Part shown: positions 50,868-55,043 of the stretch, in pieces
Layout of the letters: every line of letters starts with the position of its first letter
Numbering within the stretch: position 1 is the first letter of the stretch
Source: Sulfurimonas sp. HSL-1656
Lineage (GTDB): Bacteria > Campylobacterota > Campylobacteria > Campylobacterales > Sulfurimonadaceae
Length of the DNA stretch: 64,000 nucleotides
Assembly (NCBI RefSeq): GCF_039645585.1
Contig: NZ_CP147915.1
Location: forward strand, 1,860,001-1,924,000
Direction of reading: 5' to 3'
Translations under genes and position numbers: made by a program
Notes under the pieces: generated by a model
Database searches by the model: none
Told to the model about the DNA's origin: nothing
Seen by the model: only the letters and a program-made list of their open reading frames with translations

Positions 50868-50963
50868 CCCTTCGCCGCCACTTGACGCCTGCCGCTTCAA
50901 GAGGCGCTTGTCTATTTTTGTGTACACTGGGGGAAGTGGCAGTCGATGGGAGGTCCCTACACA

Positions 50964-52694
50964 ATGAGCGCCGAATGGTGGGAGCACGCCGTTTTTTACC
51001 AGATCTACCCCCGCAGTTTTGCCGATGCTGACGGCAACGGCATCGGCGACCTGGCCGGCATTATCGGGAAACTTGACTACCTGCAGTGGCTCGGTGTCGA
51101 CGCCCTCTGGCTCTCCCCGCATTACCCCTCCCCGCAAATCGACACCGGTTACGATATCACGGACTTCACGGCGGTTGAACCGGCGTACGGAACGATGGAG
51201 GAGTTCGACCGCCTGCTCGACGCGATCCATGCGCGGGGCATGAAGCTGATCCTCGATCTCGTCCTCAACCACACCTCCGACAGGCATCCGTGGTTCCTGG
51301 AGGCACGTTCAAGCCGGGACAACCCCAAGCGTGACTGGTATGTCTGGCACGACGGCGACGGGGAGGGACCGCCCAACAACTGGCAGTCGGAGTTCGGCGG
51401 CTCCGCGTGGGAGTACGATACCCTCACCGGGCAGTGGTATTACCATGAATTCCTCAAAGAACAGCCCGATCTCAACTGGCGGAACCCAGACGTTCACGCC
51501 GCGATGTTCGATGTCGCACGTTTCTGGCTGGACAAAGGGGTGGACGGCTTTCGCCTGGATGCCATCGGCACCCTTTACGAAGACCCCGCGCTGACCCCGC
51601 AGACGAGCCGTTACAATGCCATTGACGTACTGCGGCACAACTGGCTTCCCCAAGAGATACGTGACGGGATGCACTACATGGATATCGTCCGCGACTTGCT
51701 CCGGTATCAGCACGAGCAGCCCGAAGTCTTTGAACTGATGCGCGACTTCCGTACCCTGATCGACAGTTATGACAACCGTTTCCTCGTCGGTGAGACCTCC
51801 GACGTCCGCTTTCTGGGGAACGGCAGGGATGCGCTGCACGCCATCTTCAACTTCGATGTCGTCTCCCTGCCGGCGTTGACGCCTCAAGCCCTCCGGAACA
51901 TCCGGAATACGTGGCAAGCCGACATGCCTGAGGGCGGCGTTTTCTGCACGACACTTAACAACCACGACCAATCCAGGAGTGCGACCCACTTTGCCGCAGG
52001 TGCGAATCAACTGCAGCAGTGCCGCATCGCCCTCGCCGTCACCCTTTTTATGGGGGGCATCCCTTTTCTTTATTACGGCGAAGAGATCGGCATGCGCGAC
52101 TATGCCATCCGCAGCCTCGGCGAGCTGCACGACAGCGTCGGCTGGATCTACCGCGATCTGCGTCTGCAGGAGGGCATCGGCGAAGCGCAGATCCTCGCAG
52201 AGCTCGGCACCTTCTCCCGGGACCGCTGCCGGACGCCGATGCAGTGGGACCGCTCCCCCAACGCGGGCTTCACGCCGGCCGGCGTCAGGACATGGCTTCC
52301 GGTGCATGACAGCTACCTTGAAGGGGTCAACGTGGCCGACCAGGCCGCCGACCCCGATGCGCTTTTGCCTTTTTACCGGGAACTGATCCGTCTGTACCGC
52401 ACGCATCCCGCACTCCAGACAGGCAGTTTCCTGGACCTCGACCCCTCCAATGAAGCGCTGCTTGTTTTCCTCCGCACATCCGGTGAAGCGCAGTGCCTCG
52501 TCATGATCAGTTTCGCCCCAAAGCCTCTGCGATACCGCCTTGAATGCCGCGGACGCATTTTGTTTACAGACGCGCAAAAGCAGACGCCCCTTGAACCGGG
52601 GGCGTACACCCTCCCCCCTTTCGGTATCCTGGTCGCAGCACTCGAAGAAAATACACGCGCCTCGGCCTGTTTACCTCTTTTCGCTATGGTATAA
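50964..52694 (+). CDS. GH13 alpha-glucosidase-type glycoside hydrolase
   Basis: The 576-residue enzyme has the complete alpha-amylase-family set: DLVLNHTSDRHPWF, catalytic Asp199 in DGFRLDAIG, acid/base Glu277 in FLVGETSD, and Asp335 in LNNHDQSR. The start and layout (WWEHAVFYQIYPRSFADADG) resemble oligo-1,6-glucosidase/alpha-glucosidase subfamilies. I chose ATG 50964 with GGGAGGT upstream over an ATG six codons earlier that overlaps that site. No signal peptide, so it is cytoplasmic. Next to ggpPS it may hydrolyse glucosylglycerol or stored glucosides; that is inference. Confidence 0.88.
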   Translation: MSAEWWEHAVFYQIYPRSFADADGNGIGDLAGIIGKLDYLQWLGVDALWLSPHYPSPQIDTGYDITDFTAVEPAYGTMEEFDRLLDAIHARGMKLILDLVLNHTSDRHPWFLEARSSRDNPKRDWYVWHDGDGEGPPNNWQSEFGGSAWEYDTLTGQWYYHEFLKEQPDLNWRNPDVHAAMFDVARFWLDKGVDGFRLDAIGTLYEDPALTPQTSRYNAIDVLRHNWLPQEIRDGMHYMDIVRDLLRYQHEQPEVFELMRDFRTLIDSYDNRFLVGETSDVRFLGNGRDALHAIFNFDVVSLPALTPQALRNIRNTWQADMPEGGVFCTTLNNHDQSRSATHFAAGANQLQQCRIALAVTLFMGGIPFLYYGEEIGMRDYAIRSLGELHDSVGWIYRDLRLQEGIGEAQILAELGTFSRDRCRTPMQWDRSPNAGFTPAGVRTWLPVHDSYLEGVNVADQAADPDALLPFYRELIRLYRTHPALQTGSFLDLDPSNEALLVFLRTSGEAQCLVMISFAPKPLRYRLECRGRILFTDAQKQTPLEPGAYTLPPFGILVAALEENTRASACLPLFAMV

Positions 52695-52773
52695 GGGACA
52701 CCGCTTGCACTTCTCGTATGAGATTTGCATATTGACTTTCTTTAATTTTTTCCACACTACAAAACACCATCAC

Positions 52774-52780
52774 AGGAGGG
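52774..52780 (+). promoter_or_regulatory. Strong ribosome-binding site deciding a non-AUG start
   Basis: AGGAGGG lies seven bases before an in-frame ATC at 52788. No ATG, GTG or TTG follows at usable distance in the frame of the downstream protein; the first canonical start is a TTG more than 100 bases on. Confidence 0.75.
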
Positions 52781-52787
52781 TAGTCAC

Positions 52788-55043
52788 ATCTCTATTGTTA
52801 TCACAGAAGACATCCACATTCTCGCCACGGATCTCGACGGAACGTTTCTCGAAAGCGCCAACAAAGCAGACGATCCGCTTTACCGCTACTTGCACGACAA
52901 TCCGAACATCATTCTTGTTTTCAACTCCGGGAGGAATATCGAACTGATCCTGCCGCTTTTGGATGATATGTCCATTCCAACCCCCCACTACATCATCGGC
53001 GACGTCGGCGCCTCCGTGCTTGACGGTACGAACCTCGAACCGGTGCAGCCGCTACAGCACAATATCTCGAAGCGGTGGTACAAGGCCCTCGACTCCATCG
53101 CGGACCTCCGCGACCGTCTCGAGACGCTCGAACGCCAGGACCAGCCCCAGGAGCGCCGCCTCTCCTACTACGTCACGAGCAGCACCATCCCCAGGGAGCT
53201 CGTCGACGAACTCAGCACCCGCGAGTGCGACGTCCTGCACTCCAACGAGATCTACCTCGACATCCTGCCCAAGGGCACCAGCAAAGGTTCCACCCTTGAA
53301 GCGCTGGTCGACCATCTGGGGGTGCCCAAAGAGCGGGTCATCGTCGCCGGGGACACCCTCAACGACCTCAGCATGTACCAGCACGGCTTCAAAGGCGTCG
53401 TGCTGAACAACGCCGAAACCCCGCTCAAAGAGGCGGCCAGCCAGATCGAACACGCCTATTTCTCCAAGGCCCCGGGGACCCACGGCATCCTCGAAGCGAT
53501 GCACCATTTCGGCATCGCCGAAGCGGAGCATATCGCCAACCTCCCGGCCCCGACTTACGGCGACGCGAACCTCGTCATGGTCTACCACCGCCTCCCGTTC
53601 CAGGAGGTCGAAGAAGCGGGGAAGATCGTCCACAAAAAACACACCAGTCCCAACGGCATCCTCCCCACCCTGCTGGGCTTCTTCGCCAACGGCGAAAAGG
53701 GCTCCTGGGTCGCCTGGTCCAAGTGTGAAAGCCGCACCCCGGAGGATTTTGAAAAGTATGTCGAGGTGGACAAGGAGCAGTACGAGCACCTCCGGGTCTG
53801 CCGCGTCCCGCTGACGGCCTATGACGTCAAGATATTCTACGAGGTCTTCTCCAAAGAGGCGTTCTGGCTTCTGCTGCACTCTTTCCACGAAAAGGCCGTC
53901 TTCAACCACGACCACTGGAAACACTTCTGCGATGTCAATCGCATCTTTGCGGAGAACACGGCGGCCGAAGCGGCCGAAGGCGCCGTCGTCTGGATCCATG
54001 ACTACAACCTCTGGATGGTCCCGGGCTACCTGCGGCAGCTACGCCCCGACGTCAAAATCGCCTTTTACCACCATACGCCTTTCCCGTCGGCGGATATTTT
54101 CAATATGCTCCCCTGGCGGCGCGACATCATCAACTCGCTGCTGCAGTGCGACTATGTCGGCTTCCATATTCCCCAGTACGTCGACAACTTCGTCAATACG
54201 GTCCGTTCCAACACCCAGATCGAAGTCAACTCCCGCAAAAATGCCGCGCCACTGTTCAAAACCTACGGCTGCGCGATCGGCGTCGATGATTATGCCGACT
54301 CTTTCACGACCGAGCTCAATACCGTCCGCCTCGGCGCACACCCCGTCGGCATCAACTGCGGTTATATCGAACAGCTTGCGGCCAGCGACCATGTGCAGAC
54401 GCTCTACCACAAGATCCGCGACGAGATCGGCGACAACAAGCTGATCGTCTCCATTGAACGCACGGACTATACCAAGGGGCCGGTGGACAAGCTCAAAGCC
54501 TACGAGCAGTTCCTGGAGACCCATCCCGAAATGCGCGGCAAGATCAACCTCTTCATGGTCTGTACCCCGCCGGCCAAGGGGATGGCGATCTACGAAGAGA
54601 TCACCCAGGATATTGCCTACCACGTCGGCCTCATCAACGGCCGCTTCGGCTCGTACAAATGGACCCCGATCCACTACGTCAACCGCGTCATCCCCTTCGA
54701 GGACGTCATCGCCTACAACTGCGCCGCGGACATCGGCTGGGTGACGCCGCTGCGCGACGGCCTGAACCTCGTCGCCAAAGAGTACGTCGCCGCCCAGCAC
54801 GCCATCGGCGGCAATGGTGCGCTGGTGCTCTCCGAATTCGCCGGGGCCGCCGTGGAACTGCACGGCGCTTTCCTCGCCAACCCCTACGACAGGGTCGACA
54901 TGAGCAATACCCTTATGCAGGCCCTCGAAGCCCCGGAAAAAGAACGGGCCTCGCGGCTGCAGCGCATGTCGAACATCATCCACCGTTACGATGTCAACGC
55001 CTGGGGGCAGGACTTCCTCTCCAGCGTCACGGAGAGTGACTAA
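52788..55043 (+). CDS. ggpPS: Fused glucosylglycerol-phosphate phosphatase/synthase (GgpPS-like)
   Basis: GgpPS makes the osmolyte glucosylglycerol from ADP-glucose and glycerol 3-phosphate. Read from ATC 52788, the ~751-residue protein has an N-terminal HAD-IIB phosphatase (nucleophile motif TDLDGT, Asp15/Asp17; KGTSKGSTLEAL; GDTLNDLSMY) and a C-terminal GT20 domain with VWIHDYNLWMVPGYLR, FYHHTPFPSADIF, ERTDYTKGPVDKLKAYE and TPLRDGLNLVAKEYVAAQ. ERTDYTKG and the phosphatase-first fusion favour GgpPS over trehalose-6-phosphate synthase. The ORF has no canonical start before the HAD motif; an AUC or AUU start is likely. The first TTG (52890) would remove the nucleophile. Confidence 0.82.
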   Translation: MSIVITEDIHILATDLDGTFLESANKADDPLYRYLHDNPNIILVFNSGRNIELILPLLDDMSIPTPHYIIGDVGASVLDGTNLEPVQPLQHNISKRWYKALDSIADLRDRLETLERQDQPQERRLSYYVTSSTIPRELVDELSTRECDVLHSNEIYLDILPKGTSKGSTLEALVDHLGVPKERVIVAGDTLNDLSMYQHGFKGVVLNNAETPLKEAASQIEHAYFSKAPGTHGILEAMHHFGIAEAEHIANLPAPTYGDANLVMVYHRLPFQEVEEAGKIVHKKHTSPNGILPTLLGFFANGEKGSWVAWSKCESRTPEDFEKYVEVDKEQYEHLRVCRVPLTAYDVKIFYEVFSKEAFWLLLHSFHEKAVFNHDHWKHFCDVNRIFAENTAAEAAEGAVVWIHDYNLWMVPGYLRQLRPDVKIAFYHHTPFPSADIFNMLPWRRDIINSLLQCDYVGFHIPQYVDNFVNTVRSNTQIEVNSRKNAAPLFKTYGCAIGVDDYADSFTTELNTVRLGAHPVGINCGYIEQLAASDHVQTLYHKIRDEIGDNKLIVSIERTDYTKGPVDKLKAYEQFLETHPEMRGKINLFMVCTPPAKGMAIYEEITQDIAYHVGLINGRFGSYKWTPIHYVNRVIPFEDVIAYNCAADIGWVTPLRDGLNLVAKEYVAAQHAIGGNGALVLSEFAGAAVELHGAFLANPYDRVDMSNTLMQALEAPEKERASRLQRMSNIIHRYDVNAWGQDFLSSVTESD

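Follow-up and report, generated by a model that had tools for sequence, protein, structure and literature searches.

A conserved AUC codon as the likely translation start of the fused glucosylglycerol-phosphate phosphatase/synthase gene ggpPS in Sulfurimonas and Micavibrionales

We analyzed a window of 64,000 nucleotides from Sulfurimonas sp. HSL-1656 (contig NZ_CP147915.1, positions 1,860,001 to 1,924,000) and find that translation of its ggpPS gene likely begins at a genuine AUC codon kept by selection, with a Shine-Dalgarno (SD) sequence that would rescue the weak codon and an output that would be limited and sensitive to IF3. Comparison with homologous genes indicates that the AUC start is genuine and under selection, as opposed to an artefact of sequencing. 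By analogy with known near-cognate starts, it probably holds production of the enzyme low, and a salt- or IF3-dependent induction of ggpPS is possible.

The gene encodes a fused enzyme whose first catalytic motif lies close to the proposed start:

52788 to 55043, + strand: ggpPS, fused glucosylglycerol-phosphate phosphatase/synthase, 751 aa read from the AUC, with stop codon TAA at 55041-55043
52830 to 52844, + strand: HAD motif I, DLDGT (nucleophile and acid/base Asp)

Glucosylglycerol is a salt-protective solute (osmolyte). Numbered from the AUC, the N-terminus of the product is an S6PP-like HAD-IIB phosphatase (Pfam PF05116, residues 11-243) and the C-terminus a GT20 synthase (Pfam PF00982, residues 261-747). 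The glucosylglycerol-phosphate synthase model TIGR02398 scores the protein at 649 bits, against a curated cut-off of 569. Both domains, with an intact motif I, place the product in the GgpPS family, and glucosylglycerol synthesis is its predicted function. The phosphatase motif I is complete only if translation begins upstream of DLDGT. This motif is matched in the alignment by the DLDNT of sucrose-phosphatase 1s2o, so that a start at TTG 52890 would cost the enzyme its catalytic strand.

The elements that define the start region are the following:

52743 to 52745, + strand: in-frame stop TAA, limiting 5' extension of ggpPS
52774 to 52780, + strand: Shine-Dalgarno AGGAGGG, with a 7-nt spacer to ATC 52788
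52788 to 52790, + strand: proposed ggpPS start ATC (AUC), based on ATC in 7/7 clade genes and on the Ile-codon control
52890 to 52892, + strand: TTG, first canonical start-like codon in the ggpPS frame, rejected as start

From the stop codon onward, the frame reads TAA(52743) TTT TTT CCA CAC TAC AAA ACA CCA TCA, continues as CAG GAG GGT AGT CAC ATC(52788) TCT ATT(52794) GTT ATC ACA GAA GAC and, directly after this GAC, as ATC CAC ATT CTC GCC ACG GAT CTC GAC GGA ACG. The initial annotation had proposed that ggpPS starts at a codon other than AUG, GUG or UUG, and reading the frame confirms its statement that no ATG, GTG or TTG occurs between TAA 52743 and TTG 52890. Its further point that initiation at TTG 52890 would delete the phosphatase site also holds, given that DLDGT lies upstream of that codon. 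The genome's own 16S rRNA, located in the same window, ends GGATCACCTCCTTT and pairs with the ggpPS SD, which makes AGGAGGG a full 6-base anti-SD match (16S tail CCTCCTTT). The claim that the SD is well placed for the AUC is likewise borne out, and the same SD is found in two congeners.

Close homologues of the gene are few. Within the family, ggpPS occurs in 3/228 genomes, every one of them in the window's genus, and the two congeneric proteins share 96% and 91% identity with that of the window. Beyond the genus, the nearest genes belong to four genomes of the Micavibrionales (4/142 of the order), which GTDB places in the Alphaproteobacteria, with 64-73% protein identity. These seven genes (the window gene, L002 and L003 from the window's genus in the Campylobacterota; L030, L031, L059 and L060 from the Micavibrionales) form the set used for the comparison of the start codon that the initial annotation had called for. 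All seven, the window gene counted, have ATC at the corresponding position, preceded by a Shine-Dalgarno. In the three genomes of the window's genus, the segment ACAGGAGGGTAGTCACATCTCTATTGTT is identical although the leader just upstream diverges. The Micavibrionales start regions read GAAGGAGGGGGAGCG-ATC-TCT in L030, AAAAGAGGTACAGACCA-ATC-ATT in L031 (where the AUC is directly beside an AUU), AAAAGGAGAGAGCT-ATC-ACA in L059 and CAGGAGAAGGTAGCT-ATC-ACC in L060, so that the codons flanking ATC vary on either side. Four of the seven genes (window, L030, L031 and L060) hold no canonical start between the in-frame stop and DLDGT. Judged by the lack of a usable canonical start together with an AUN codon at SD spacing, the genes have a predicted near-cognate start, strictly so in these 4/7.

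As a control, we considered how often a codon is retained within the coding sequence. Of the 28 internal columns with invariant Ile, just one reads ATC across the seven ggpPS genes, and no more than 17/352 invariant degenerate columns retain one codon throughout. The genome of G005 is too similar to that of the window to supply a baseline of other genes that need non-canonical starts. Ile codons in L030 are distributed as 9 ATC, 34 ATT and 7 ATA, and its start is nonetheless ATC. Under independent draws of Ile codons, counting the window's genus as a single draw, the chance of finding ATC throughout at the start is approximately 0.014, a modest p-value owing to the small number of sequences (n=7). 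A stronger argument than this figure is that ATC is the sole codon kept in that stretch, beside the SD, across long branches. Taken over the aligned genes, the start ATC is conserved between species beyond coding expectation.

In a maximum-likelihood tree, the seven AUC genes constitute one clade (support 100/100) that spans long branches, with genes from Campylobacterota g37 and Marinobacteraceae, at approximately 50% identity, falling outside. Starts in these outgroups are canonical in every case (29/29 Marinobacteraceae and 4/4 Campylobacterota g37), most being ATG and a few GTG or TTG. The topology indicates that the AUC has a single origin, its conservation amounting to one evolutionary event followed by retention. 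The nesting of the window's genus among the Micavibrionales genes suggests that transfer went into the Campylobacterota. No gene neighbours are common to the ggpPS loci of the two groups, so ggpPS appears to have travelled by itself, taking its start region along. No relative was found on viral contigs. Regarding taxonomy, the records of L030 and L031 are named Micavibrio and their lineage line in the tree reads Bdellovibrionota, a label that seems outdated; a class search around their genome returned gene coordinates from Tistrella mobilis, implying that the collection puts the genome in the Alphaproteobacteria. The T. mobilis ggpPS match itself (L043, L044, L056) carries an in-frame TGA, which may reflect a pseudogene, a split gene or a frameshift.

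The strength of the SD differs among the clade genes. No ggpPS gene in the comparison has a stronger SD/anti-SD duplex than those of the window's genus, at -12.6 kcal/mol; L030 follows at -12.4 kcal/mol, and the duplexes of L031, L059 and L060 are ordinary (-7.2 to -8.7 kcal/mol). The best duplex outside the AUC clade, at -9.4 kcal/mol, is exceeded by 4/7 clade genes. An RNA structure or Rfam element was also considered as a reason for the conserved leader and finds no support in the leader folds or the Rfam search: the folds of the seven leaders revealed no shared structure around the start (z-scores -0.3 to 1.5), and positions 52400-53000 returned no Rfam match.

The strong SD is open to another interpretation, namely that AUC is the start but is merely tolerated, with the SD compensating for it, no regulatory role, and persistence through chance or mutational inertia. 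The single origin of the clade, the unusually strong SD in the genes of the window's genus and the one internal Ile column in 28 that stayed ATC in all seven genes by chance are compatible with this account, which we nevertheless consider unlikely. ATC has been retained over long branches even in AT-rich, ATT-dominated genes such as L030, and ATG, the start of most outgroup genes (the rest having GTG or TTG), is only one C-to-G change away. That same proximity of ATG lends some appeal to a sequencing or assembly error at 52788 with G as the true base, for one substitution would restore the canonical codon. The identical ATC in G004, G005 and four Micavibrionales genomes leaves such an error extremely improbable, and its presence in independent genomes disposes of the base error that the initial annotation had named as a possible refutation.

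Translation could instead begin elsewhere: at TTG 52890, yielding a truncated protein, at AUU 52794, or at an upstream or out-of-frame codon followed by recoding. TTG 52890 comes first among the canonical codons of the frame, but starting there removes HAD motif I, and the codon is not conserved, reading TTA in L030. The AUU, which the initial annotation had listed as the next option, loses that standing, as the codon is not conserved among the homologues. Canonical in-frame codons do occur upstream in L002 (ATG, TTG), L003 (TTG) and L059 (GTG), but they precede the SD at non-homologous positions and are absent in four genes. An out-of-frame TTG is present at +7 in the window's genus, and out-of-frame starts in the Micavibrionales are located 19-31 nt inside the gene, most of them opening ORFs of a few codons. 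Initiation at TTG 52890 paired with a separate phosphatase, the other refutation that had been envisaged, is disfavoured as well, since ggpPS is the sole full-length S6PP match in each of the seven genomes, making a separate phosphatase unlikely; the other S6PP matches in the genus are weak and partial (20-25 bits, in ORFs of approximately 275-300 aa). On this evidence, a start elsewhere is very unlikely. Frameshift entry into ggpPS finds no support: canonical codons that lie out of frame close to the start vary from gene to gene, and most of them lead to short ORFs.

Selected initiation at AUC is the reading we prefer, and it has precedents in part. A good SD is known to let a near-cognate AUN codon serve as start, with IF3 discriminating against it, as established for E. 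coli infC and pcnB (PMC9410913). In S. aureus, ccpN (AUA) and cvfC1 (AUU) have conserved near-cognate starts with an extended SD and approximately 10% of the AUG yield, and the ratio of near-cognate to AUG output of ccpN varies with growth medium (PMC13009471). The AUU start of E. coli pcnB, encoding poly(A) polymerase I, is attributed to Binns and Masters (2002) in the accounts given by PMC13009471 and PMC9410913. One gene resembling ggpPS in its start is infC (AUU in E. coli, AUA in S. aureus), which shares a near-cognate AUN codon, a good SD, conservation across species and, presumably, discrimination by IF3. The two differ in that infC autoregulates IF3, whereas a metabolic enzyme such as ggpPS cannot feed back on IF3. 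Like pcnB, ggpPS encodes an enzyme whose expression would be capped by an inefficient near-cognate start, although the codon (AUU versus AUC), the enzyme and the phyla are different. The staphylococcal genes share with ggpPS a conserved non-canonical start and have an extended SD, but they encode a regulator and a small protein, are conserved within Staphylococcus/Bacillus, and have starts demonstrated by experiment; ggpPS is biosynthetic, is found across phyla by transfer, and has a start read from sequence.

AUU and AUC starts are at home in the four Micavibrionales genomes that carry ggpPS, as their infC genes attest: these begin with ATT in L064 and L066 and with ATC in L065 and L067 (genomes G927, G457, G942 and G458), and in L065 and L066 no canonical in-frame start precedes the conserved infC domain (start near locus positions 1470-1545). 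Compared with this alternation of AUU and AUC, ggpPS has AUC in 7/7 genes. The infC genes of the window's genus, by contrast, begin with TTG, so that the classical infC/IF3 loop is not evident there. The parallel to infC/IF3 regulation at which the initial annotation had hinted is plausible. Marinobacter ggpPS (PMC10873239) has the same fused GGPP-GGPS architecture and approximately 50% identity, and in contrast to the AUC of the window's clade all 29 Marinobacteraceae genes read start with ATG, GTG or TTG. Viewed against known near-cognate starts, the ggpPS start appears unusual in its codon (AUC, not AUU or AUA), in belonging to a biosynthetic enzyme for a stress solute, and in being kept across two phyla. 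To our knowledge, natural AUC starts have hardly ever been documented in bacteria, and we found no literature naming glucosylglycerol together with Sulfurimonas.

We propose that the initiator tRNA decodes AUC 52788 as fMet, the strong, well-spaced SD keeping the 30S subunit at the codon long enough for the near-cognate pairing to be accepted. Selection would have kept the AUC since the common ancestor of the ggpPS clade, and when the gene passed between Micavibrionales and Campylobacterota the codon would have gone with it. The AUC most likely serves to cap enzyme output at a low yield, and ggpPS expression would be tied, as for infC and pcnB, to the IF3-controlled stringency of start-codon selection and could thereby be modulated by IF3 or growth state. 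A reason to limit the enzyme may be that it drains glycerol-3-phosphate and nucleotide sugar, the osmolyte being costly when not needed. A further extension, in which the AUC start acts as a built-in sensor of osmotic or growth state, is distinctly unlikely: a salt upshift would change the ionic strength or the ratio of IF3 to ribosomes, relax start-codon stringency and raise enzyme synthesis at the ribosome. Were this so, the SD, the AUC and the gene would constitute a cassette that works in hosts without close kinship, and this would account for its having been kept when it passed from one phylum to another.

A single-gene cassette for a stress solute that keeps an AUC start in two phyla would offer a clean natural case for near-cognate starts as selected translational throttles, and also for asking whether initiation fidelity responds to osmotic state. 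It has a practical consequence too, for gene finders restricted to ATG, GTG and TTG would truncate ggpPS at TTG 52890 and lose the phosphatase active site, and automatic annotation of the ggpPS family in these groups may hence be wrong.

The gene upstream of ggpPS in the window is kept as a neighbour in the window's genus only:

50946 to 52694, + strand: GH13 alpha-glucosidase-type gene, ending 93 nt before the AUC

No sigma-70 promoter was found in the 93-nt gap. The GH13 gene, also present in G005, may act in breaking down glucosylglycerol and can be compared in this with the GH13_18 phosphorylase adjoining ggpPS in Marinobacter. In the Micavibrionales genome G942 (L072, 1665-4456), ggpPS follows genes resembling glycerol-3-phosphate dehydrogenase and glycerol kinase, a possible source of its substrate. 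On plasmids of Dinoroseobacter and Falsirhodobacter (L057, 1450-3731; L058, 1465-3758), the phosphatase and the synthase are separate adjacent genes, and this unfused module stands behind a gene for G3P dehydrogenase.
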